From positions 1 to 56,422 of the forward strand of contig JAAELY010000494.1 in the NCBI GenBank assembly GCA_024226335.1: 56,422 bases of DNA. Direction: 5' to 3'. Below, piece by piece: positions 1 to 45,793 of the stretch (its first letter is position 1; each line of letters starts with the position of its first letter). This stretch comes from a bacterium (GTDB taxonomy: Bacteria > Myxococcota_A > UBA9160 > SZUA-336). The notes beneath the pieces are model-generated. The model did no database searches, was not told the origin of the DNA, and saw only the letters and a program-made list of their open reading frames with translations. Both the position numbers and the translations under genes were made by a program.

Positions 1-140
1 GCTGCGAAGCGCGATGCATCCGCCTGCGCTGCGTCGCGCGACCCTCTGCAGATCTACGGATCTGCGATCGGATCACGCTTCTTGCTCAGGCGGCGACTCC
101 CGCTTCTCGCTCGAATCCTCCCTGTGCAGAGATTCCCTAG
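1..140 (+). mobile_element. MITE-like element, copy A (left part cut by window start)
   Basis: This is the right-hand 140 bp of a small inverted-repeat element present three times in the window. It aligns with 2697-2836 with one difference seen (position 69) and is identical, in inverted orientation, to 56307-56422. It ends in CTAG at 137-140, and that CTA is the stop codon of the FHA gene on the minus strand. No ORF is credible inside it. The centre can form a hairpin with stem GCAGATC/GATCTGC and loop TACG. Its left terminal repeat lies outside the window. Confidence 0.85.
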
Positions 141-26955: not shown

Positions 26956-27110
26956 TTTCCCGAAGTCCCCACGCGGCTCTGCGCGTTTCGAGGACACCGC
27001 TGCGCTCTGAACGGATCAGCCGTCGGCGCAGCGCGATCTCGTGACACGACGGAACCCTGGTGCTGTGTCGAAACTTCGCGCAGCGGAATCGAGACTTCGG
27101 GAGATCGGCA

Positions 27111-28448
27111 ATGAAGAACAGAACCACTGTGGGAGCAGGCGTGATCATCGCCCTGCTTCCGCTGCTAGCGTTTTCAGCCTGGGCTCAGGCCAGTGAAGGC
27201 GGCGAGAAACCCACATCGTTTGATTCGGAAGCAACCCGTGCGGCGATTCCGAAACCGCTGACACTTTCCTGGTGTCTCGAGCGAGCGCGCGAAGCGAATC
27301 CCACACTCCAGCGAGTCGCCGCGCAAGCCTCTGCTGCGAGGCATCGCATCGTACCGGCCGGATCGCTGGAAGATCCCCGACTCGCGTACGAGGCCAGCAA
27401 TATTCCGACGGGAGACCTCGACTTTCACTCGACGCCCCTATCGGGCCACCAGTTCAGGTTGCGCCAGAAGCTCCCCGTTCCCGGACTTTTGTCGCGGCGC
27501 GAAGAAGCGGCGAGGCGCGCCGCGCAGGCCTCTGCACTGCTCGTCGAGGATCAGGGATTCCTGACCGATAGTGCGGTGGAAGTGGCGTGGGCTGAACTCG
27601 GTTTTGCCCAACAAGCGCTCGACATCACGAGTCGAAACATCGGCCTGCTTCGGCAGCTTTCAGAGACTGCAGAATCCAGGTATCGCGTCGGAAGCGGTCT
27701 CCAACAGGACGTGCTGCGCGCACAGGTCGAACTGACTGCATTGCTTCGCGAACGTCTGCGTCGTGTGGAAGCGATCGAGCGAGCCGAGTCCCGGCTGGTC
27801 GAACTCCTCGACTTGCCCGCAACTACACGGCTCTCGCGGACCTCCGAACTCAGGATGACGACCGAAGAACCTCTGCTCCGGCCACTTCTCGGCGCGCTCG
27901 AAGAACGAAGCACCCGGCTTCGCGCTGCGGGCCGCAGCGTAGAAGCGGCCCGTGCGCGGGTGCGCGCGGTCGAACTCGAAGGGCTTCCCGACGTCGATCT
28001 GGGCATTGGCTACCGAGTGCGTTCGAACGTCACCGGAGACAGGGTAGACGGTGACGACTTTCTTTCCGCCGGAGTCGTTCTTCGCATTCCCGTCAATCGT
28101 TCGAAGTGGCGCGCCCGGGTAGCCGAACAGAAAGCGCTTCTGCGCCGTGCCGAAGCCGACTATCGGGCTACCCGCGCTGCGCTCGCATCCCAGACCCGCC
28201 GCGCTCATGCGGAACTGATCCGCGCTGCATCCGAAGAAGCTCTTCTCGTGACAGGACTCGTTCCACAGGCACAGCAATCCCTCGAATCGAGTCGCTCGGG
28301 ATACAAAGTCGGGCGAATCGGGTTCCTGAGTCTGCTCGATAGTCAGGTCAGGCTTCTGGGTGCAGAACTTCGCCTGGCTCGCACGCGAGCCGACAAACGC
28401 CTGGCCTTCGCAGCGCTCGAGTCTGCGGCCGGGGAGAAACTGCGATGA
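27111..28448 (+). CDS. TolC-family outer-membrane channel (CusC/CzcC-like)
   Basis: This 445-residue protein has a signal peptide (about 1-27) and the two-repeat helical structure of outer-membrane efflux proteins: LSWCLERAREANPTLQRVAAQ at the start of the tunnel helices, the GSGLQQDVLRAQVEL repeat about 195, and the equivalent KVGRIGFLSLLDSQVRLLGAELRL repeat near 415. It would form the outer-membrane exit duct for the copper/silver pump. The ATG at 27111 has GGGAG about 8 nt upstream. Its stop overlaps the cusB start by 4 bp (ATGA), so the pump genes are coupled. Confidence 0.88.
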   Translation: MKNRTTVGAGVIIALLPLLAFSAWAQASEGGEKPTSFDSEATRAAIPKPLTLSWCLERAREANPTLQRVAAQASAARHRIVPAGSLEDPRLAYEASNIPTGDLDFHSTPLSGHQFRLRQKLPVPGLLSRREEAARRAAQASALLVEDQGFLTDSAVEVAWAELGFAQQALDITSRNIGLLRQLSETAESRYRVGSGLQQDVLRAQVELTALLRERLRRVEAIERAESRLVELLDLPATTRLSRTSELRMTTEEPLLRPLLGALEERSTRLRAAGRSVEAARARVRAVELEGLPDVDLGIGYRVRSNVTGDRVDGDDFLSAGVVLRIPVNRSKWRARVAEQKALLRRAEADYRATRAALASQTRRAHAELIRAASEEALLVTGLVPQAQQSLESSRSGYKVGRIGFLSLLDSQVRLLGAELRLARTRADKRLAFAALESAAGEKLR

Positions 28449-29797
28449 ACGCGAGACAACTCCTTCTCCTGCTCGTCTTGCTTCCCCTGGCCCTGGCCGC
28501 TGGCTGGTGGGGGCGCGGTTTGTTCCCGAAGGAATCCCCGATCGATCAGAGTGCCATCGGTGCGACCTCACAAGGCCCGTGTCCCGGAGGCGCATCGCCG
28601 CTCTACTGGGTGGCTCCCATGGACCCAACTTTCATTCGGGAGGAACCCGGGCAGTCGCCCATGGGAATGGACCTCGTTCCGAAGTGTCCCGACAGAAGCG
28701 GCGAGACGCCCGGACGCAGTGTCGTCATCGATTCCGCTACCGTGCAGAACATCGGCGTGAAGACCCTCACAATCGAACGGAGGGACCTCGCGCGCTCGGT
28801 GCGTGCCGTGGGCCGCATCGCGTATGACGAGCGTCGCGTCGCCCACGTGCACACGAAGGTGCAGGGCTGGGTCGAAAAGCTGTTCATCGATTTCATCGGG
28901 CAGACGGTGAAGCGTGGAGAGCCGCTTCTGGAGATCTACTCACCCGAACTCGTCGCAACACAGGAAGAGCTTCTGCTCGCCGCGCGCTATCGGGACGCGA
29001 CGGAAGGCAGTCCCTTCGACGATGTTCGAGGCGGAGGTGAATCGCTTTTCGCGGCGACGAAACGACGCCTTGCGCTCTGGGATGTTCCCGAACGCGACAT
29101 CCAACGCCTTCTCGAGACGGGCGAGGTAAAACGGACCCTCACCCTCTACGCGCCGGCTTCGGGCGTCGTGACTCAACTCGGTGTGCGCTCGGGAATGGAG
29201 GTCAGGCCAAACCTGAACCTCTATACGATTGCCGATCTGTCTCGTGTCTGGGTGCTTGCGGACATCTACGAGTACGAACTTCCGTGGCTTGCGCTCGGCC
29301 AGCAAGCGGCGATCGAACTGCGTTCATTGCCCGGAGAGTGGATGCGCGGCGAACTCAGCTACATCGCTCCATTTCTCGATGCGAAGACTCGCACGGCGGA
29401 AGTGCGCTTCGAACTCGATAACAAGGACGGCAAACTCAAACCGGAAATGTTCGGCAATACGGTGATCACGGGTGCACCTCATTCGGATGTGATCGCTGTC
29501 CCGACCGATGCCATCATCCGTTCGGGAACCCGGGCGATCGCCGTCGTTTCGCTGGGCGAGGGACGTTTCGAACCGCGAGACATCCAACTCGGACTCGACA
29601 CGGGAGATGGCTGGTTCGAAGTTCGTTCCGGTCTACGATCGGGCGAAGACATCGTCATCTCCAGTCAGTTCCTCATCGATAGCGAGAGCAAACTCCGAGA
29701 AGCGGTCCGGAAACTCCGGGCCGCCGGAGCCGGCGAGAACGCAGACTCAGCACTGGACTCGGATGGTCGGGATTCCGGCAGCCGAGACATGGAGTAG
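28445..29797 (+). CDS. cusB: CusB-type RND periplasmic adaptor
   Basis: This 450-residue membrane-fusion protein has an N-terminal hydrophobic anchor (about 5-20) and an early heavy-metal binding segment, YWVAPMDPTFIREEPGQSPMGMDLVPKC, whose Met residues match the CusB/CusF-like copper site. The hairpin/lipoyl region follows (GWVEKLFIDFIGQTVKRGEPLLEIYSPEL, LTLYAPASGVVTQLGVRSGM), then a beta-barrel domain. It would link CusA to the outer-membrane channel and hand over Cu(I)/Ag(I). It overlaps the upstream channel gene by 4 bp, and cusA follows after 5 bp. Confidence 0.92.
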   Translation: MNARQLLLLLVLLPLALAAGWWGRGLFPKESPIDQSAIGATSQGPCPGGASPLYWVAPMDPTFIREEPGQSPMGMDLVPKCPDRSGETPGRSVVIDSATVQNIGVKTLTIERRDLARSVRAVGRIAYDERRVAHVHTKVQGWVEKLFIDFIGQTVKRGEPLLEIYSPELVATQEELLLAARYRDATEGSPFDDVRGGGESLFAATKRRLALWDVPERDIQRLLETGEVKRTLTLYAPASGVVTQLGVRSGMEVRPNLNLYTIADLSRVWVLADIYEYELPWLALGQQAAIELRSLPGEWMRGELSYIAPFLDAKTRTAEVRFELDNKDGKLKPEMFGNTVITGAPHSDVIAVPTDAIIRSGTRAIAVVSLGEGRFEPRDIQLGLDTGDGWFEVRSGLRSGEDIVISSQFLIDSESKLREAVRKLRAAGAGENADSALDSDGRDSGSRDME

Positions 29798-29802
29798 ACG
29801 TC

Positions 29803-32800
29803 GTGCTCCGCCGCATCGTCGAGGCCTCCGCCAACAACCCCGTCATGGTTGCGCTCGGCGTGGCTGCACTGCTGGCCTGGGGTGCCTATGCAGTCTTCCA
29901 CACTCCGCTCGATGCGATTCCCGACCTCTCGGACGTCCAGGTCATCGTACTCACGGAATATCCAGGCCAGGCGCCACGCGTCGTCGAGGACCAGATCAGC
30001 TATCCGCTCTCGACGGCGTTGCTTGCCGTTCCCGGAGCCAAGACCGTTCGCGGCTACTCGTTCTTCGGCACATCTTTCGTCTACGTCATCTTCGAGGATG
30101 GTACGGATCTCTACTGGGCGAGAAGCCGTGTGCTCGAATTGCTGAATACCGTCTCCGGGCGCTTGCCCGCCGGGGTCACGCCGACACTGGGCCCGGATGC
30201 CACGGGTGTCGGCTGGATCTATGAATACGCTCTGGTCGACCGTACCGGCAGACACGATCTGGCCGAGCTTCGCTCCATCCAGGACTGGCACCTCCGTTAC
30301 GCCCTTCAGACCGTTCCCGGTGTCGCAGAAGTGGCAAGCGTCGGCGGTCATGTGCGCCAGTACCAGGTCGAAGTAGACCCGAACCCGCTCGCGGCCTACG
30401 GGCTTTCGCTCAGCCACGTTCGCCGCGCGATTGAGCGCAGCAATAGCGAAGTGGGCGGACGGCTTTTCGAACAGGCGGAGACGGAGTTCATGGTGCGCAG
30501 CCAGGGTTTCGTCCGATCGACCCGCGACCTGGAACAGATCGCCGTAGGTGCCGATGAGTCCGGAACGCCGATCTTGCTGCGGAACATCGCGACGGTGTCG
30601 ATCGGCCCGGAGATGCGCCGCGGCCTCACTGATCTGGACGGTGAAGGAGAGGTCGCCGCGGGAGTGGTCATCATGCGTTACGGAGAGAACGCACTCGAGA
30701 CCATCCGAAAGGTCAAAGAGAAACTCGCCGAGGTCGAGACGAGTCTCCCGCCCGGTGTGGAAATCGTTCCGGTCTACGATCGCGGGCCGCTCATCGAACG
30801 CGCGGTGGAGAATCTCGGCGAGAAACTGTTGGAGCAGGCCCTCATCGTCGCCCTGATCTGCGCGGTCTTTCTCATGCACATGCGAAGTGCGCTTGTGGCG
30901 ATCCTGATTCTGCCCCTCGGCATTCTCTTCTCCTTCATCGTGATGTTCCACCAGGGCATCAACGCCAACATCATGTCGCTCGGCGGCATCGCGATTGCCA
31001 TCGGCACGATGATCGATGCGGGAATCGTCATGGTCGAGAACGCTCATAAGCACCTCGAACGCGACAGCGGTCAAAAGCCACGGCGCGAGATCCTGATCGA
31101 CGCAGCCGTGGAAGTCGGCCCCTCATTGTTCGCTTCCCTGTTGATCGTCTCGATTTCATTCCTGCCGATCTTTGCCCTCGAAGCCCAGGAAGGGCGTTTG
31201 TTCAAACCACTGGCGTTCACGAAGACCTATGCGATGCTCGGCGCCGCGCTTCTTTCCATCACGGTCGTTCCCGCATTGATGATGTGGTTGGTTCGAGGCA
31301 CGATCCTGCCAGAGCGGCGCAACCCGTTGAACCGTTTGATCCTGTGGATCTATCGACCTGCCCTCAGCGCGGCCCTTCGACATCGTTTCACCGTGGTGAC
31401 GATCGCCGGTTTCGCGCTTCTCGCGAGCGTCTATCCACTCGAGCACATCGGTTCTGAGTTCATGCCCCCATTGGATGAAGGCGATCTGCTCTACATGCCG
31501 ACCACGCTCCCTGGAATCTCCATCGCAAAAGCCCGAGAACTGCTTCAACAGACGGACCGGATCATCGCCTCGGTACCCGAGGTCGAGCGCGTGTTTGGCA
31601 AGGTCGGAAGGGCTGAAACCGCGACGGATCCGGCGCCGCTGAGCATGATCGAAACGACCATCACATTGAAACCTCGAAGCGCCTGGCGGCCCGGCATGAC
31701 GCCAGAAAAGCTGGTCGCGGAACTCGACGGAATGATCCGATTCCCGGGGCTGAGCAATGCCTGGACGATGCCGATCAAGACACGCATCGACATGCTTTCG
31801 ACCGGAATCAAGACCGCCCTCGGCATCAAGATTTCCGGCCCCGATCTCTCGGTTCTCGAAGAACTCGGAGAACACGTCGAGGCGATCCTGCGCGAGGTTC
31901 CCGGTACACAGAGCGTCTACGCGGAGCGGGTTTTCGCTGGAAACTATCTGGATATCGACATCGATCGTGAACAGATCGCCCGCTACGGAATTACCGTACG
32001 TGACGTCCAGGACGTCATCCAGACGGCGGTCGGCGGCCTGAACATCACGCAGACGGTCGAAGGCCTGGAACGCTACCCCGTCAATCTGCGCTACAGCCGA
32101 GAGCTTCGGGACGACCTCGCATCCCTGCGGCGCGTCCTCGTCTCGACTCCGGGTCGCGCACAGGTGCCCCTTGAACAGCTCGCTTCGCTCAGCTTCGTGA
32201 AAGGTCCTCCGGCGATCAAGACCGAGAACGCGCGACCCAGTGCCTGGGTTTTCATCAGTCTGGATGGAATCGACATCGGCACCTATGTGCGAGACTCGCG
32301 CGAGGTGCTTCGAGACCGTCTCGATCTGCCGTCCGGCTATACCCTGGAGTGGAGCGGTCAATACGAGTATCTGGAACGCGCCCGGAATCGCCTTGCCCTG
32401 ATCGTCCCCGCAACTCTAGGAGTGATCTTCTTCCTGCTCTATGTGGTCTTCAGGAACACTCGCGATGCGCTGCTCGTAATGTCCTGCCTGCCGTTTGCGC
32501 TCGTGGGGGGAGTCTTGCTGCTCTGGGTGCTCGACTACGACTTCAGTGTTGCCGTCGGCGCGGGATTCCTGGCACTGGCCGGGCTCACAGCCGAGACGGG
32601 CGTGATCATGCTGCTCTTCTTGAACCAGGCCCGCGATCGCGCTCTGGATTCGGGCGCTCTTCGAACAGTGCAGGACCTGTGGCGTGCCACGATCGAGGGT
32701 GCGACCTACCGAGCCCGGCCCTTGTTGATGACGGTGGCCTCCGACGCAATCGGCTTGCTTCCGATCATGTGGGGAGCAGGAACGGGTTCAGAGACCATGC

Positions 32801-32928
32801 GCCGTATTGCCACTCCAATGGTAGGCGGCGTCGTGACGATCTCACTGGTCACACTCATCCTCATGCCCGTTTTCTTCGTCCTTGTGCACGCTCGAAATCT
32901 TCCCACGGGACCGGTCGAGGACGACTGA
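29803..32928 (+). CDS. cusA: CusA-type heavy-metal RND transporter
   Basis: This 1041-residue proton-driven inner-membrane exporter has twelve expected TM segments and two large periplasmic loops. AIGTMIDAGIVMVENAHKH matches the HME4 (monovalent Cu/Ag) branch rather than CzcA. EFMPPLDEGDLLYMPTTLPG and WTMPIKTRIDMLSTGIK carry methionines in the positions of the CusA metal relay. The start is GTG, 5 bp after cusB. Together with CsoR upstream this makes a complete CusCBA tripartite efflux locus; no cusF or copper ATPase gene is present in the window. Confidence 0.95.
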   Translation: MLRRIVEASANNPVMVALGVAALLAWGAYAVFHTPLDAIPDLSDVQVIVLTEYPGQAPRVVEDQISYPLSTALLAVPGAKTVRGYSFFGTSFVYVIFEDGTDLYWARSRVLELLNTVSGRLPAGVTPTLGPDATGVGWIYEYALVDRTGRHDLAELRSIQDWHLRYALQTVPGVAEVASVGGHVRQYQVEVDPNPLAAYGLSLSHVRRAIERSNSEVGGRLFEQAETEFMVRSQGFVRSTRDLEQIAVGADESGTPILLRNIATVSIGPEMRRGLTDLDGEGEVAAGVVIMRYGENALETIRKVKEKLAEVETSLPPGVEIVPVYDRGPLIERAVENLGEKLLEQALIVALICAVFLMHMRSALVAILILPLGILFSFIVMFHQGINANIMSLGGIAIAIGTMIDAGIVMVENAHKHLERDSGQKPRREILIDAAVEVGPSLFASLLIVSISFLPIFALEAQEGRLFKPLAFTKTYAMLGAALLSITVVPALMMWLVRGTILPERRNPLNRLILWIYRPALSAALRHRFTVVTIAGFALLASVYPLEHIGSEFMPPLDEGDLLYMPTTLPGISIAKARELLQQTDRIIASVPEVERVFGKVGRAETATDPAPLSMIETTITLKPRSAWRPGMTPEKLVAELDGMIRFPGLSNAWTMPIKTRIDMLSTGIKTALGIKISGPDLSVLEELGEHVEAILREVPGTQSVYAERVFAGNYLDIDIDREQIARYGITVRDVQDVIQTAVGGLNITQTVEGLERYPVNLRYSRELRDDLASLRRVLVSTPGRAQVPLEQLASLSFVKGPPAIKTENARPSAWVFISLDGIDIGTYVRDSREVLRDRLDLPSGYTLEWSGQYEYLERARNRLALIVPATLGVIFFLLYVVFRNTRDALLVMSCLPFALVGGVLLLWVLDYDFSVAVGAGFLALAGLTAETGVIMLLFLNQARDRALDSGALRTVQDLWRATIEGATYRARPLLMTVASDAIGLLPIMWGAGTGSETMRRIATPMVGGVVTISLVTLILMPVFFVLVHARNLPTGPVEDD

Positions 32929-38786: not shown

Positions 38787-39245
38787 ATGACGAGCAACGC
38801 TGCACAGTCAAGCGATCGCGACCCGCCCCCGTTTGGCTTCGCCTATGCGGCGTTCGGGTTTGCCCTGGTTGCGATGCTGGGCAGCTTGTTCTTCGGCGAG
38901 ATCATGAAGCTGCCGCCCTGCACGCTGTGTTGGTACCAGCGCATCTGCCTGTTTCCGCTGACCGCTGTGCTCGCGGTCGGCATCGCTTTGCGCGACCAGA
39001 GGATCAGCGCCTACGCCCTGCCCCTGGTGATCGCCGGTCTGGTGATCTCGACCTACCACAATCTTCTCCAACTCGGTTTGATCGACGAGGCGCTCAGCCC
39101 ATGCACCGGCGGCGTCTCGTGTTCTGAGCAACAGATCGAATTTCTGGGTTTCGCGAGCATCCCCATGATGTCTCTGGTCGCATTCTTGGCGATCCTGGGT
39201 AGTCTTGTCGCCCACCAGCGAACGCAGCCGAAAGCGAGTCAATGA
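38787..39245 (+). CDS. dsbB: Disulfide bond formation protein B (DsbB/BdbC type)
   Basis: This 152-residue inner-membrane protein has four TM helices and both redox cysteine pairs: C45-T-L-C48 in the first periplasmic loop (PPCTLCWYQRICLFPL) and C106/C112 (SPCTGGVSC) in the second. It reoxidises the DsbA-like partner, passing electrons to quinone. The short form is the BdbC type, which usually pairs with a membrane-anchored BdbD. Its stop overlaps the start of that partner gene by 4 bp (ATGA), so the pair is translationally coupled. Confidence 0.93.
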   Translation: MTSNAAQSSDRDPPPFGFAYAAFGFALVAMLGSLFFGEIMKLPPCTLCWYQRICLFPLTAVLAVGIALRDQRISAYALPLVIAGLVISTYHNLLQLGLIDEALSPCTGGVSCSEQQIEFLGFASIPMMSLVAFLAILGSLVAHQRTQPKASQ

Positions 39246-39901
39246 AAGACGTCTACAGACTGGGAGCGATCGCCATTGCACTTCTCGCGGCCTTTGGAAT
39301 CGCCGCCGCGATCTACTCTCGAAGCCAAGATCAGGAGCGATCCGAGCAGGTACGGAAACAGGCGACGAGCGATCCTGCGGTTTTCGTCCGGCCCCATAGC
39401 CGCTTCATCGGGCCCGCAGATGCGGAGGTCACGGTCGTCGAGTTCTTCGATCCGGAGTGCGAGGCGTGTCGGAAGGCTCACGCACCGGTCAAGCAGTTGA
39501 TCTCAGGCTACTCCGGCCGAGTGAGGCTCGTGATGCGTTACATGCCGTACCATCCGAACTCCGTCTACGCAGCCGGTGCACTGGAAGCTGCGGGGGCGCA
39601 AGACCGCTACTGGGAAATGCTCGACACCTTGTTCGAACATCAACCGGCCTGGGGCGACCATCACGCGCCCAAGCCCGAACTGATTCCCGGCTACGCCCGT
39701 GAAATCGGCCTGGACATGAACGCGTTCGTGCAATCGATCGAAAGCGGCACCCACAAGCGACTGGTCGCGACCGACCGAATCGACGGCGAAAGGCTCGGGG
39801 TCTCCGGTACTCCATCTTTCTTCGTCAACCAGAAGCCACTCGTTCGACTCAGCCTCGTGGACCTCAAGAAGATGATCGATTCGGAACTCGCCGCGAATTA
39901 G
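39242..39901 (+). CDS. Membrane-anchored DsbA-like thiol:disulfide oxidoreductase (BdbD type)
   Basis: This 219-residue thioredoxin-fold protein has an N-terminal membrane anchor (about 7-25) and a periplasmic catalytic domain. The active site is C73-E-A-C76 in FFDPECEACRKAH, and cis-Pro P191 lies in GTPSFFVN. The Glu-Ala pair between the cysteines differs from E. coli DsbA (PH). It is coupled to dsbB upstream. Its 3' end faces the AhpD-like selenoprotein gene with a 42-bp gap, giving a three-gene thiol-redox patch. Confidence 0.9.
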   Translation: MKDVYRLGAIAIALLAAFGIAAAIYSRSQDQERSEQVRKQATSDPAVFVRPHSRFIGPADAEVTVVEFFDPECEACRKAHAPVKQLISGYSGRVRLVMRYMPYHPNSVYAAGALEAAGAQDRYWEMLDTLFEHQPAWGDHHAPKPELIPGYAREIGLDMNAFVQSIESGTHKRLVATDRIDGERLGVSGTPSFFVNQKPLVRLSLVDLKKMIDSELAAN

Positions 39902-39943: not shown

Positions 39944-41044
39944 TCAGGAGGTTTCGATTGCGCCCAGCAGGTGGCCGCGCTCAGCCGTCGGGTCAGCCCT
40001 TTCCAGATCGGTATTGGCCGCACCGGCGAAATCGTCGAGTCCCAGATCCTGAACGAAGCTCGCCGAGCCGTGCAGGGTGCCTTCGTCAATGGGGATGCCG
40101 CTCAGGTCTGCGGTACGCACGAGACCGTTGAAGATGCCCACGATACCCGCAGCTTCCAAGAAGCCGTGTTCACCGAGGACCGCACGCAGAGCGCTTCGCG
40201 CTTCATCTGCATCTTCATTTCCGCGCGTGATCGCCTCACCAAAGCGCACCAGTTGCTCGCCGTGCTCGAGGCCGCCACCGCCGGCCTGTCCCACGGTGGC
40301 CTCGAGGGCGACGCTCTGCTCGATCTTCGCGCTGCTCTCACGGAGCAGCAGTACGTGCGAGGTGGTTCAGTAGAAACACTCGTTCACGGCCGCTACGCGC
40401 GACGCGAGTAGTTCCGCCTGGGGGCGTGATAGCGGGCCGTCCCAGACCAGATCGAAGAAGGTTCCGCCGGTGCTGCTGTACATCGCCATGACATTGGCCA
40501 TGAAAAGACTATTGGCTTCCGGAACCAGGCTCAGTGCGCGCCCGACGTTGGGACCCGTCCACGGATCCATCATGTGAACATAGGCGCCCGCATCCACAGC
40601 CGTGTCCAGGACTGCACCGTCTGGATCTCCCGCAACCGGTTCGGGAAGGGCTTCGTGCGCGATACCCAGTGCTTCGGCGAACGCATCGATTGCACTCACG
40701 GTGGCGACGATCGCACCGAGTTCGACATAGGCGGCCTCGCCCAGTGCGGCGATCTTTGCAGCCGCCCAGTCGCGATCGATCTTGCGAGCATCGGCGGCAA
40801 TCGTGCGGGCGGCGTCCACGGCTTCGTCGCTAAGGCACTCCTCGGCCTCGGGGAGTCCCTTGCGCAGCCAGGGTGGTTCGTTTCGCGCAGCACGCGTGGC
40901 GCGAGCCTGGCGCGCAATTTCGACGCGCTGGAAGCCGGTCCACTGGGAACCGGCGCGCGCAATGCTGCTCCAACTCGTCCGGTGAATCTGCGCGATCTCG
41001 GCGCGCACATCGAAGCCTCGAGAGGTGTAGTCGAAAATGGCCAT
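39944..41044 (-). CDS. AhpD-like (carboxymuconolactone decarboxylase family) selenoprotein, Sec at residue 226 (UGA 40367-40369)
   Basis: One frame of 367 codons runs through a single in-frame TGA at 40367-40369. Residues 221-230 read N-E-C-F-Y-U-T-T-S-H, which matches the AhpD active site E-x-C-x2-C-x3-H with Sec in place of the second Cys (C223, U226, H230). Homology continues after the UGA for 140 residues (AGIVGIFNGLVRTADLSGIPID). A hairpin with a GU-containing loop follows (40331-40349). AhpD-family proteins use the CxxC pair to reduce peroxides or to act as redox relays; CxxU forms are known from marine metagenomes. The N-terminal half (about 60-120) looks like a second AhpD-type domain without the pair. 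Start ATG 41044 has AGGA upstream. The alternative is a nonsense mutation. Confidence 0.85.
40331..40349 (-). promoter_or_regulatory. SECIS-like hairpin for Sec insertion
   Basis: In the mRNA a 7-bp stem GCUGCUC-CGUGA-GAGCAGC begins 17 nt after the UGA, so the loop G is at +26, within the 16-37 nt distance known for bacterial SECIS elements. The loop contains GU, as in E. coli fdhF. A lower stem UCGC/GCGA (+7-10 with +37-40) can form across an asymmetric internal loop. It lies inside the coding sequence, as expected in bacteria. Confidence 0.75.
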
Positions 41045-41179
41045 CCGCCCATCCTATTCGGAGTCTTCCCCTGTGTAAACAGAGCTTGTCCCGGACGGCC
41101 CGTGCTAGGGTTGGAATTGCGTCGGACAGGAACGCCCGAGGAGTATCCCGGGCCGGGAATTCGTACAGGGAGATGAGAG

Positions 41180-42616
41180 ATGCAGGACGAGTGGGCGAAG
41201 GTCGATGCCACGGGACAAGCCGAAGCCGTGGCTTCAGGACAGGTCAAGCCAGTGGAACTGGTCGAAGCGGCGATCGCGCGGATCGAACGACTGAATCCAC
41301 AGCTCAATGCCGTGATCCACAGACATTTTGATCGCGCGATCGAGCAATCGCGCGGCGAACTTCCCGACGGTCCGTTTCGCGGTGTGCCGTTTCTCTTGAA
41401 GGACCTCGGCTCTGGCGCTCGAGCCGGAGACCCGATCCATTGGGGCACGCGCTTCCTCAAGGACGCCGGATTCTGTGCTGCAAACACTTCCTACCTGGTC
41501 GAGAAGTTCGATGCGGCAGGACTGGTCACGGTGGGACGAACCAATGTCCCCGAACTGGGAGCCTGGTCGATCACCGAACCCGACGCCTATGGGGCCACGC
41601 GCAATCCGTGGAATGCGGACCACGCCTCCGGTGGTTCGAGCGGTGGCGCGGCCTCCGCCACGGCTGCGGGAATCGTTCCGTTCGCACATGCGAGCGACGG
41701 CGGTGGTTCGATTCGAAATCCCGCGAGCCAGTGCGGACTCGTGGGGCTGAAGCCCTCGCGCGGTCGGGTCTCGCTCGGACCGGATGGGGCCGAGGGCTGG
41801 GCCGGAATGGTCTACGAATTCGCGGTCACGCGCAGTGTGCGCGACTGCGCCGCGTTGCTCGACGCGGTTCAGGGAGGAATGCCCGGAGATCCCTATGCGG
41901 TGGCGTCACCTGCCACACCTTACAAGAGCGAAGTCGGTGCGGATCCGGGCAAACTGCGCATCGGCATCGTCGATCGCCAGACGGACGGCCCACTGCATCC
42001 GGACTGTGACGCGGCGATGAAGGACACGGGGCGCCGACTCGAAGCTCTCGGGCACAAGGTCGAGATTGCCTACCCGGAAAACCTATTCACGGACGCGCTG
42101 CTTCCACACGTCTTGAATGTGATCAGCTCCAGCCAGGCGCGCGATATGGAAAACATGGGCCAGGCAATCGGCCGCACACTCGATCAAGGAGATGTCGACT
42201 CTGACAACTGGCTGGTCAGTGAAATGGGCAAGACGATTTCGGCGACTCAGTATCTCGCTGCCATCGAGGCGTACAATCTGTTCCGGCGCGAGATGCTGGC
42301 CTGGTGGTCGAGCTTCGATGTACTGGTCACGCCGACGATCACGGCGCCCTCCCCGCTCGTTGGGGAAATCTTGCCCGATCCCGCCAAACCACTCGATGCG
42401 TTCATGCGCAGTGGTGCACTTCTCGGTTTCTGCGTTCCGTTCAACATCACAGGGCAACCCGCGATGTCCCTTCCGCTATTCCAGAACGCCAAAGGCCTGC
42501 CGATTGGCGTGCAGTTGATCGGAGGAACCGAGCGCGAAGACCTGCTGATTCGTCTGGCTGCCCAACTGGAGGACGATGTGCGCTGGAGCCAGAGGGTGCC
42601 CGCTATCCACGCCTGA
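41180..42616 (+). CDS. Amidase (AS family)
   Basis: This 478-residue amidase-signature enzyme has the Ser-cisSer-Lys triad visible: K74 in FLLKDLG, the cis serine S153 in SGGSSGGAASA, and the nucleophile S177 in DGGGSIRNPAS. The length matches non-GatA amidases, and no GatB/GatC partners are nearby, so it is a hydrolase of carboxamides rather than a tRNA-transamidating subunit. Substrate unknown. ATG at 41180, downstream of a purine-rich GGGAGATGAGAG. The selenoprotein gene is divergent from it (135 bp between starts). Confidence 0.9.
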   Translation: MQDEWAKVDATGQAEAVASGQVKPVELVEAAIARIERLNPQLNAVIHRHFDRAIEQSRGELPDGPFRGVPFLLKDLGSGARAGDPIHWGTRFLKDAGFCAANTSYLVEKFDAAGLVTVGRTNVPELGAWSITEPDAYGATRNPWNADHASGGSSGGAASATAAGIVPFAHASDGGGSIRNPASQCGLVGLKPSRGRVSLGPDGAEGWAGMVYEFAVTRSVRDCAALLDAVQGGMPGDPYAVASPATPYKSEVGADPGKLRIGIVDRQTDGPLHPDCDAAMKDTGRRLEALGHKVEIAYPENLFTDALLPHVLNVISSSQARDMENMGQAIGRTLDQGDVDSDNWLVSEMGKTISATQYLAAIEAYNLFRREMLAWWSSFDVLVTPTITAPSPLVGEILPDPAKPLDAFMRSGALLGFCVPFNITGQPAMSLPLFQNAKGLPIGVQLIGGTEREDLLIRLAAQLEDDVRWSQRVPAIHA

Positions 42617-42681: not shown

Positions 42682-44556
42682 TCAGCGCGTCGGTTGGTAC
42701 CAGATGGCAGACGTGATGGCCCGTTCTTGCAGGGTCGCCGGTTCGGGCGGCTCGATACCGAGTAACACGGCGTCATAGGTCGACCATCGCGGTGTCGGAA
42801 TCTCGATCACGCGCACGTAGTAGAACGCTTCGGCCGAGGCATCGAAATCCGGATCGCTCCAGACGGCTTCGAGTTGTGCGGCACCGATCTCATTGCTGTA
42901 CGTGGCGTCTTCGAGCTTCACGGTATTGCCCACGGGGGAAACGCGCCGGGTTTTCGGATCGGGCAGGCGCCCGTCCGATGCGGCGATGTCGAAGATGCGC
43001 TCGCGGGCCGTTCCGTCGGAGTCGAGCCAGCCCTTGACGATCTGGATGCGATCGAGATTCGCGCCCGTCGGATCCTTGAGGGCGACGACCGCAAACCGGG
43101 GAGCGGCCTCTCCGATGCGGGGCGGCAGTATGCCACCCATCGGAACCCCCCGGGCATAACCCTGGGCCACGAATCCCGGATCGCGCAACAGGGCCGGTTC
43201 GAACTGCCAGCCGCCGAAGAGTCGCACGACGATTCGCGGTCCGGAGATGGCGTAGGTTTCCTTGCGACGCATGGCGTCGAATAGCGACTCCCGCGTATTC
43301 TGTTCGGCCCAGACCGCCGCCAGGCCCATCGCACTCCAGCGTGCCCCTCGGTTCTGACGATCGGGTAGCCAGAGCGTCTGTCCGAGTCGCAATCCCGCCG
43401 TGCCGTCTTGAAGTGGAAGCTTGCCGTGATAGCGCCCCTCCTCGACGGGAGAAGAGGCATTGTGGCTATCGCTACTGCCGATCACACCGAAGCGATAGGG
43501 ATTGAAGGCGTAGAGGGCCGAGAGTTCGAGGCCGGTCTTCAGGGCATCGCGTGAATAGCTGCCGCGAGGCTGCGAGAACGTACCTTCGGCCGAAAGGATC
43601 TGGTCGTAGATCTCGAAGTCCGCGAACTCGTCGTCGCTCGCGAGGAGCGGGTGGACCTCGGATTGACCCTTTACTTGAAGGATCTCGCTGATGGGTTCGT
43701 TCTTCATGCGAGTCTCGGCATAGGCTGCCGTCATGGGAGAGCCGTCAAAGCGGACCCGCGAATACATCCGGCCATTGCTCACATTTGCGTTGTGTGGAAT
43801 CGAGAGCGTCTCCATGCCTTTGCGGCGTTGATTCTCCAGCGCCGCCCAGAGATCTTCGGGGTCTTCGGAATCGAGCGAACTGAACGGGAACTTCGGCGCG
43901 GCACTCGAGCGATAGATCACGTTGCGGTGCAGGTTTTCGGCCCTCGGCATCGAGGTCCACTCGTAGGCGATGAAAGTCGTGAAGCGACCGGGTTCGTTGT
44001 GCCGTTCCGCGGTGGTCACGATGTCCTGCCAGGCGTTCAGCGAAACCTCGCCGACCGGTTCTCCGCCAAAGGAAGCTTCGCGCGCCTCGACGCTCGCCAG
44101 ACGTCCCAGGACGATGCGAAGATAGTTCAGCGTGATGCGCCAGGGTTGGCCGGTCGCCAGGATCTCGTGCAGGGGTCGGTCGCCGCGATCCCCCTTCTGC
44201 CTGGCTACGCCGAGATACACGGCGTGATCGGTCACCGCCGCAAAGTCGAGGGGTTGCGACAATTGCACCGGGTAGCCGGCCCCGTGTTCGATGCGAGCTC
44301 CCTTGGCGAAACGGTATGCGTCATCGGGCATCGCGCGCACGCCAAAGGTGTACGCGTCGTAGGAATAGCTGGAGTGGATGTGCAAGTCTCCCCAGAAGAC
44401 GTTGCGCAACTCGGAATGAGGAAGTGGCTCGGGCGGTTCGAAGGCATCCGTCGACGGATTGACTCCGAGCAGCGACGGATCATCGACCCGGGTGCACACA
44501 TCGGCCACCAGAAGTGCAAAGCCAAAGAGCGCAAGACCGAGGATCAGCCGTCTCAT
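42682..44556 (-). CDS. DUF3604 family exported protein (PHP-like)
   Basis: This 624-residue protein has an N-terminal signal peptide (about 1-20), then the DUF3604 signature: NVFWGDLHIHSSYSYDA (HxH metal-binding start), AAVTDHAVYLG, GVIGSSDSHNA and a C-terminal YSNPIW-like ending (AITSAIWYQPTR). The fold is related to PHP metallo-phosphoesterases; several His/Asp motifs suggest a metal-dependent hydrolase, probably exported, but no substrate is known. I placed the start at 44556 because it gives the signal peptide; the longer open frame to 44706 would overlap the start of the divergent hydrolase gene. Confidence 0.85.
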   Translation of the reverse strand: MRRLILGLALFGFALLVADVCTRVDDPSLLGVNPSTDAFEPPEPLPHSELRNVFWGDLHIHSSYSYDAYTFGVRAMPDDAYRFAKGARIEHGAGYPVQLSQPLDFAAVTDHAVYLGVARQKGDRGDRPLHEILATGQPWRITLNYLRIVLGRLASVEAREASFGGEPVGEVSLNAWQDIVTTAERHNEPGRFTTFIAYEWTSMPRAENLHRNVIYRSSAAPKFPFSSLDSEDPEDLWAALENQRRKGMETLSIPHNANVSNGRMYSRVRFDGSPMTAAYAETRMKNEPISEILQVKGQSEVHPLLASDDEFADFEIYDQILSAEGTFSQPRGSYSRDALKTGLELSALYAFNPYRFGVIGSSDSHNASSPVEEGRYHGKLPLQDGTAGLRLGQTLWLPDRQNRGARWSAMGLAAVWAEQNTRESLFDAMRRKETYAISGPRIVVRLFGGWQFEPALLRDPGFVAQGYARGVPMGGILPPRIGEAAPRFAVVALKDPTGANLDRIQIVKGWLDSDGTARERIFDIAASDGRLPDPKTRRVSPVGNTVKLEDATYSNEIGAAQLEAVWSDPDFDASAEAFYYVRVIEIPTPRWSTYDAVLLGIEPPEPATLQERAITSAIWYQPTR

Positions 44557-44704
44557 ACCCACTGCGACTCGAAAACCAGGTTCAAGGCACCTTCCTTCTC
44601 TCGGTGACACGCATTGTGGCTCAGATGGGAATTTCCAGCCAAGTGCTCCCGGCTGGTACACTGTCGTCCATCGAGCGATCGGCGCTATCGGCGAGGAGAC
44701 ACCC

Positions 44705-45793
44705 ATGTGGATCGGATTGATCGTGCTACTGCTGTGTGCGGGCGTCGTCGCGCTCGTCCTGGTTCTGCTGGACTCCTCAGATCACAGCCAGCACGACCGG
44801 CCTCGACACGAACTGATCAAACCGGCGCATGCGATCAGTCCCCAGCATCAAGATGTCGTGAAGACTCTCGGCGTTTTCCACGAGACGGCGCCGAGTCCTC
44901 GCGACGTCGCGGCCCAGCGACTGCACACGGAGGAACTCTTCGGGCGCGAGGTCGAGTCGCAGGTGACTCCGGTCGATGTCGATGGCGTTGCCGCTGAATG
45001 GGTGCAAGCCGAAGGCTCACGTTCGGAACAGCGCTTGCTCTACCTGCACGGTGGAGCTTTTCGCGTCGGCAGTCCGAAGAGTCACAGAGGCATGACCGAC
45101 AGTCTGTCGCGCCTCACGGGGGCGTCGGTGCTCGCAATCGACTATCGGATGCTGCCCGAACATCCCCTGATGGCGTGCCACGAAGACGCCCGCAAGGCGT
45201 ACCGTTGGATACTCGAGAACGGACCCGAGGGCCGCTCGGAAGCGCGGGGCTTGTATGTGGCCGGTGACTCCGCGGGAGGCAATCTGACACTCGCGCTCAA
45301 CGCCTGGATCCGGGATCGAGGGTTGCGCGCGCCAAACGCCACGGTCGCGATGGCCCCGACGACAGATGGCACCATGCGCAGCCCCAGTTGGCGCAGCAAT
45401 CGCGCGAGCGATCCATTTCTGGGCCCCATGATCGGCCCGCTGATGCGCATTCCGCGACCGTTGCTGCTGGTTGGCATGGCGGCGTCCAATCGCTGTCGTC
45501 CGAACAATCCGGAAGTCTCGCCCCTGCTCGGCGAATTGTCCGGATTGCCTCCTACGTTGATCCAGGTGAGCGAGCAGGAGTTGCTCTTCGACGATGCGCG
45601 CCGCTACGCAAACAAGGCGAGCGCCGCGGGCTCGCCGGTGAGGCTCGAAGTCTGGCCCACACTGGTACACGTTTTCCAGGTCTTTTCACCGGACCTTCCC
45701 GAGGCCGATGAAGCCCTGAATTCAATCGCGAGCTTCGTACGAGAACGCATGCCCTTGGACGATTCAATCGCGATCGTGCGCGAGGTCAGCTAG
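44705..45793 (+). CDS. Alpha/beta hydrolase of the HSL/steryl-acetylhydrolase type with N-terminal TM
   Basis: This 362-residue serine hydrolase has HGGAF (115-119) for the oxyanion hole and GDSAGG (187-192) with S189 as nucleophile, marking the hormone-sensitive lipase family. The Asp lies in LLFDDAR and the His in LVHVFQ near the C-terminus. An N-terminal TM segment (about 3-22) anchors it in the membrane. Family enzymes hydrolyse short-chain esters. Start at 44705, with GGAG about 6 nt upstream. It is divergent from DUF3604 and upstream of the Cys/His-repeat gene. Confidence 0.88.
   Translation: MWIGLIVLLLCAGVVALVLVLLDSSDHSQHDRPRHELIKPAHAISPQHQDVVKTLGVFHETAPSPRDVAAQRLHTEELFGREVESQVTPVDVDGVAAEWVQAEGSRSEQRLLYLHGGAFRVGSPKSHRGMTDSLSRLTGASVLAIDYRMLPEHPLMACHEDARKAYRWILENGPEGRSEARGLYVAGDSAGGNLTLALNAWIRDRGLRAPNATVAMAPTTDGTMRSPSWRSNRASDPFLGPMIGPLMRIPRPLLLVGMAASNRCRPNNPEVSPLLGELSGLPPTLIQVSEQELLFDDARRYANKASAAGSPVRLEVWPTLVHVFQVFSPDLPEADEALNSIASFVRERMPLDDSIAIVREVS

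Follow-up and report, generated by a model that had tools for sequence, protein, structure and literature searches.

The question raised by this locus is whether a TGA triplet that breaks an otherwise open frame on the minus strand of a myxococcotal contig is a stop codon or is read as selenocysteine (Sec). The window, that is, the whole stretch of DNA that was analysed, comprises the 56,422 nucleotides of contig JAAELY010000494.1 (assembly GCA_024226335.1). Translation of 39944-41044 (-) with TGA as U gave 366 residues, of which U226 was the sole internal stop. Residues 221-230 read NECFYUTTSH, with CFYUT at positions 223-227 and the U corresponding to TGA 40367-40369; both the frame and the motif agree with a preliminary description of this DNA. 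The ATG at 41044 is a sensible start, as it is preceded at a distance of four codons by an in-frame TAG. Upstream of the gene, the sole sigma-70-like promoter match is a single weak consensus match at 41051-41079 (-); it ends 7 bases before the ATG and would give an almost leaderless mRNA. As had been foreseen for standard gene callers, an ORF listing without read-through returned a truncated ORF of 225 aa (40367-41044) and a separate ORF of 116 aa (39944-40294), the latter starting 24 codons past UGA 226. The open frame alone is weak evidence, because in this G+C-rich window 190 TGAs are preceded by 60 or more open codons and followed by 40 or more; since such frames are common by chance, the case for a selenoprotein is carried by homology, selection and RNA structure.

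Profile searches revealed that the read-through protein scores 278.5 bits with the NCBIfam model NF041238 (AhpD_rel_CFYUT, alkylhydroperoxidase-related (seleno)protein), whose curated cut-off is 175 bits, and that the match extends over residues 13-340 and profile positions 1-356 of 357. All 24 aligned members matched the same model. The homology to this selenoprotein model therefore crosses the UGA, as the preliminary description had held, and the same is true of the coding constraint: in the five closest relatives pN/pS was 0.30-0.37 before the UGA and 0.37-0.42 after it, showing that purifying selection is similar on both sides. NF041238 is the 'hypothetical protein 1' of the Sargasso Sea selenoproteome, a family first predicted computationally in 2005 (PMC1088965) and included in Table 1 of a 2026 review (PMC13188914), where the functions of most such selenoprotein families are left unassigned; no report of enzymatic activity of any NF041238 member was found in the literature. 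By these computed matches, the window gene is a well-supported divergent member of a family that has already been modelled and published. The earlier view of it as a CxxU AhpD-like protein of a kind known from marine metagenomes was correct, but the novelty implied by the label 'unannotated' needs tempering, given the NF041238 annotation model and the 2005 publication. Taken as a whole, the locus is very probably explained as an NF041238 member in which UGA 226 is decoded as Sec and the C-terminal half holds an AhpD-type centre.

Table 1. Features of the selenoprotein locus and its surroundings; positions are those of the window.
Feature	Position	Strand	Basis or remark
Heavy-metal-type RND efflux set	27060-32928	+	Outer membrane factor, CusB/HlyD-like adaptor with heavy-metal-binding domain, AcrB/CusA-like pump
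DsbB	38787-39245	+	Convergent with selenoprotein gene
DsbA	39242-39901	+	Convergent with selenoprotein gene
CDS, AhpD-related selenoprotein	39944..41044	-	366 codons + TGA stop; NF041238 278.5 bits, translation
True stop codon, likewise TGA	39944..39946	-	Translation
C-terminal AhpD-like catalytic half, residues 171-340	40025..40534	-	Pfam CMD, 6k40, 2pfx, 2oyo; Foldseek 2prr, 6k40
SECIS hairpin	40330..40350	-	8-bp stem (7 bp conserved, +18..24 with +30..36), loop CGUGA +25..29; fold, covariation, model constraints
His230 codon, matches AhpD His137, 7 after first Cys	40355..40357	-	Invariant; PMC3141380
UGA codon for Sec226, second position of CxxU	40367..40369	-	TGA in 94/94 (phylum) and 82/82 (wider collection) typed relatives, overlapping sets
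Cys223 codon, presumed resolving cysteine of CxxU	40376..40378	-	Invariant in 24-member alignment
Glu211 codon, matches AhpD Glu118 of proton relay, 12 before first Cys	40412..40414	-	Invariant; spacing as PMC3141380
N-terminal helical half, residues 1-170, without CxLC-ER	40535..41044	-	Alignment, tree, weak profile and fold matches
Amidase	41180-42616	+	Divergent from selenoprotein gene
DUF3604 protein	42682-44706	-	Strong match, 720 bits

Comparison with relatives showed that the TGA is shared by all typed members of the family. The Sec column held TGA in every typed relative of the phylum (94/94) and in every typed locus (82/82) of a wider collection of Myxococcota, Gamma- and Alphaproteobacteria, Acidimicrobiia, a Dehalococcoidia, a Binatia and others, in which one locus was untyped by motif. 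The two sets overlap, and 145 distinct downstream sequences were obtained in all. When 379 genomes of the phylum were searched for the family, each of the matches listed at E 1e-40 or better had one internal TGA. An alignment-based search of genome contigs yielded 217 loci, 80 of which were kept; a single-sequence search of genome contigs gave no match, nor did a tblastn search of plasmid sequences for the selenoprotein. When 369 genomes from the class of one gammaproteobacterial match were searched, the family was present in that genome only. No full-length Cys form of NF041238 occurred among the typed members (Myxococcota, Gamma- and Alphaproteobacteria, Acidimicrobiia and others), whereas a few Cys homologues of 'hypothetical protein 1' were counted in the 2005 paper (PMC1088965). 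The preliminary description had proposed checking whether homologues have Cys at position 226, and solved AhpD-family proteins do have it at the aligned position, in CVYC (6k40), CFYC (2pfx), CLYC (2oyo) and CYYC (3c1l). If the absence of full-length Cys forms holds, NF041238 would be a good family in which to ask what keeps some proteins from ever going back from Sec to Cys.

Just after the UGA, a hairpin with the stem GCUGCUC/GAGCAGC and the loop CGUGA had been proposed as a bacterial SECIS element with a GU-containing apical loop, and both the structure and its reading were borne out. The 7-bp stem starts at +18 after the UGA and has 8 bp in the fold, the distance from UGA to loop is 24 nt, and G occupies loop position 2, followed by U. 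The published bSECIS model (PMC13188914) specifies a loop of 3-9 nt with G in its first two positions, an upper stem of 4-16 bp, a UGA-to-loop distance of 16-37 nt and an energy of -7.5 kcal/mol or lower, and the window hairpin lies within all of these ranges (CGUGA, 5 nt; stem of 8 bp; spacing of 24 nt; -11.7 kcal/mol). Of 1400 TGA triplets in the window, 7% come with a helix of -7.5 kcal/mol or lower that complies with the SECIS model, and only 0.9% reach the -11.7 kcal/mol of the selenoprotein hairpin. In 36 diverse members the cells of the 7-bp helix were paired in 90.9% of cases, compared to 27-50% when the helix was slid, and compensatory-change cells numbered 14, compared to 3.3 +/- 1.5 in shuffled data (0/500). 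Across members the pair +19/+35 is C-G, A-U, U-A or G-C, the pair +24/+30 is C-G or U-A, and unguided RNAalifold recovered the same 5-bp core. The Leu codon of the stem was CTC in 93/93 phylum members, compared to 42% CTC for Leu elsewhere in the same genes. Some stem changes alter amino acids and yet preserve pairing (CTG...AGC or GGC versus ATG...ATC), as would be expected if the RNA is under selection. When 42 nt were folded blindly, the apical stem appeared in the minimum-energy folds of only 54/91 members, so that the argument for a SECIS element is based on covariation and codon constraint and not on energy alone. An Rfam scan of the window gave no match.

The assembly (5.75 Mb in 556 contigs, 97% complete, 3.7% contamination) was found to hold the complete Sec pathway, for which a search of the genome had been recommended. 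The tRNA-Sec (72.7 bits; anticodon TCA by ARAGORN), SelA (514 bits), SelB (301 bits, both segments) and SelD (336 bits) each scored above the curated cut-off; their genes lie on other contigs than the window, the assembly being fragmented. SelD itself has an in-frame TGA (LVPAGG-U-ARKLG; locus L023, G000:C545:82897-83823), so that the product of the Sec pathway is needed for the pathway itself. Among 98 relatives, SelA was present in 56/57 genomes with the family and in 31/41 without it (Fisher p = 0.0006), an association that is supportive only, because the test ignores phylogeny. In the cell, the hairpin would recruit SelB with Sec-tRNA(Sec), which would decode UGA 226 as Sec, and translation would continue to the TGA at 39944.

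Three other readings of the triplet were weighed against Sec decoding. Were UGA 226 a true stop, the product would be a 225-residue protein and the downstream frame a remnant or a separate gene, much as ORF calling divides the region into a 225-aa ORF and a 116-aa ORF that starts 24 codons past the UGA. This is highly improbable, since the homology of the relatives crosses the UGA, purifying selection after it is about as strong as before it, the hairpin covaries, and truncation would leave only the first active-site Cys and cut the catalytic helix pair; a real stop or a pseudogene at this position is not tenable given homology, selection and TGA conservation. That the TGA stands for a TGC or TGT (Cys) changed by a sequencing error or a nonsense mutation would agree with the Cys at the aligned position in distant single-domain AhpD relatives, but it is barely credible in view of the TGA in all typed members from many genomes (94/94 and 82/82) and the conserved hairpin after it. 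These comparative data refute both versions; in particular, a sequencing error, which the preliminary description had named as a possible objection, is excluded because every typed family member has TGA. Decoding as another residue, either Trp by a variant code or a residue inserted by near-cognate read-through, would leave the frame open, as would any code in which TGA is sense. However, TGA terminates the same gene, the genome has a complete Sec pathway, the solved AhpD-family homologues have Cys at this position and the hairpin fits the bacterial SECIS model, which together leave this reading with next to no probability; a variant genetic code was rejected on the gene's own TGA terminator and the complete Sec pathway.

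With Sec decoding as the preferred reading, the active site and fold were considered. All 24 aligned members share E211, C223, U226 and H230, which stand at AhpD spacing. In AhpD the proton-relay residues are Glu118, Cys130, Cys133 and His137 (PMC3141380), and in PA0269 a Tyr precedes the second Cys (PMC3141380), for which Tyr225 is the counterpart here. The preliminary description had placed Sec at the second Cys of an E-x-C-x2-C-x3-H pattern; the CxxU and H230 agree with this, but the Glu of that pattern, E222, directly precedes C223, and the match to the catalytic Glu is E211. Pfam CMD (PF02627) matched residues 195-252, and the AhpD models scored below their own cut-offs (TIGR00777, 15.3 of 191.95 bits; TIGR01926, 30.9 of 81.8 bits). 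AlphaFold2 with the family alignment predicted an all-helical structure (pLDDT 93.3, pTM 0.93), whose best PDB matches by Foldseek were two AhpD-family proteins, 2prr and 6k40, covering about 165 residues, with a modest best E of 3.9e-3; these matches agree with those obtained by sequence for the C-terminal half, and in this model the C-terminal half is an AhpD-like fold. A search of a viral fold library gave no meaningful match.

By analogy with AhpD, Sec226, which stands where CxxC has its second Cys, would be the presumed attacking group, and Glu211, Tyr225 and His230 would form a proton relay. Attack on the substrate would convert Sec226 to a selenenic acid, which Cys223 would then resolve by forming a selenylsulfide with the oxidised selenium. 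A cytosolic peroxidase or thiol-redox step, such as organic hydroperoxide reduction, is the most likely role of the window protein, whose peroxidase chemistry, substrate and reductant are inferred.

A possible but doubtful alternative is that the protein is a Sec redox protein and no peroxidase, being instead an enzyme akin to reductive dehalogenases, such as Bmp8, a disulfide exchange partner of DsbA/DsbB, or a Sestrin-like protein with a partner-binding N-lobe. Bmp8, which has the same fold, and Sestrin2 are both among the fold matches, but neither match is significant (E 0.27 and 0.59, respectively). The N-terminal half without a redox pair would suit such a role, as would the DsbB and DsbA genes that lie convergent next door; the Dsb pair, however, is not recurrent in the subfamily loci and was set aside as a functional partner, and DsbA has an N-terminal hydrophobic segment like that of an exported protein, whereas the selenoprotein has no evident signal sequence. 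Apart from close relatives, no recurrent gene family was found in the neighbourhood of the subfamily loci, and thus the context does not name a substrate for the peroxidase or thiol-redox step preferred here. The neighbouring DsbA, whose active site reads CEAC, is distantly related to the thioredoxin-like (seleno)lipoproteins of NF041057 and scores under the cut-off of that model. A composition scan of the window for other TGA-interrupted genes flagged four candidates; family scans of two of them (20675 and 3844) gave none over cut-off.

The N-terminal half sets the window protein apart within its family. Most NF041238 members have a CxLC-ER motif there, which is absent from the window clade, a group of 26 rows from Myxococcota, K189A-type gammaproteobacteria and Acidimicrobiia (support 99; FastTree, unrooted). 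The preliminary description had considered an AhpD-like N-terminal half without CxxC unusual; the pair is indeed absent, but this is a trait of the whole subclade, and the AhpD-likeness is weakly supported. When profiles of the two halves were compared, CxLC fell in register with CFYU (E 4e-4, but a probability of 34%), and the best PDB matches of the N-half model were of the AhpD family at a non-significant E of about 0.9. Judged from these comparisons, an ancient duplication of the halves is likely. On the unrooted tree, the dithiol may have been either lost or gained. NF041238 might tentatively be viewed as a two-lobed AhpD family with a probable internal duplication and a Sec-only C-lobe, in whose main branch CxLC would act as if it were a built-in electron donor and in which the window subclade would need another reductant, though the few Cys homologues counted in 2005 (PMC1088965) are evidence against a Sec-only lobe and the whole scheme is rather unlikely. 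As the family has one branch with the N-terminal dithiol and another that lacks it, the question of the electron donor is directly testable. The same genome holds two further full-length canonical NF041238 copies and one partial ECFCU copy resembling a fragment (L041 G000:C101, L068 G000:C201, L069 G000:C34:30767-31108), and in two related genomes canonical and window-type copies are convergent, tail to tail, about 1 kb apart (L059 G023:C80, L065 G069:C267).

The locus is a clean example of a selenoprotein split in two by naive gene calling, and it adds a divergent subclade to NF041238 while leaving the catalogue of selenoprotein families unchanged. Compared with known systems, the protein resembles Sestrin2 in a putative arrangement of two AhpD-related helical lobes, only one of which has a redox centre; in Sestrin2, however, the N-terminal lobe is the active one and Sec is lacking, whereas here it is the C-terminal lobe, and the structural match is low (TM 0.41, E 0.59). 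The CxxU form of TIGR01926, NF041047 and the GOS AhpD-like 1 and 2 proteins (PMC2398784) share CxxU at the AhpD active site, but they are separate families in the review table (PMC13188914), and the window protein, at 31 of 82 bits, does not reach the TIGR01926 cut-off and carries an additional N-terminal half. With AhpD of Mycobacterium tuberculosis and PA0269 of Pseudomonas aeruginosa it has in common the pattern Glu-x11-Cys-x-x-Cys/Sec-x3-His and the helix-turn-helix core, while differing in having Sec for the second Cys, in being about twice as long and in scoring under all AhpD cut-offs. Relative to the main branch of NF041238, the window subclade scored 270-308 bits versus about 450-490 in the genome search, and the window protein is without the N-terminal CxLC-ER and has a shorter C-terminus. 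The closest likeness is nevertheless to that family, 'hypothetical protein 1', with which it shares a full-length match, the CFYUT motif, a UGA in the same place and a SECIS-like hairpin downstream.
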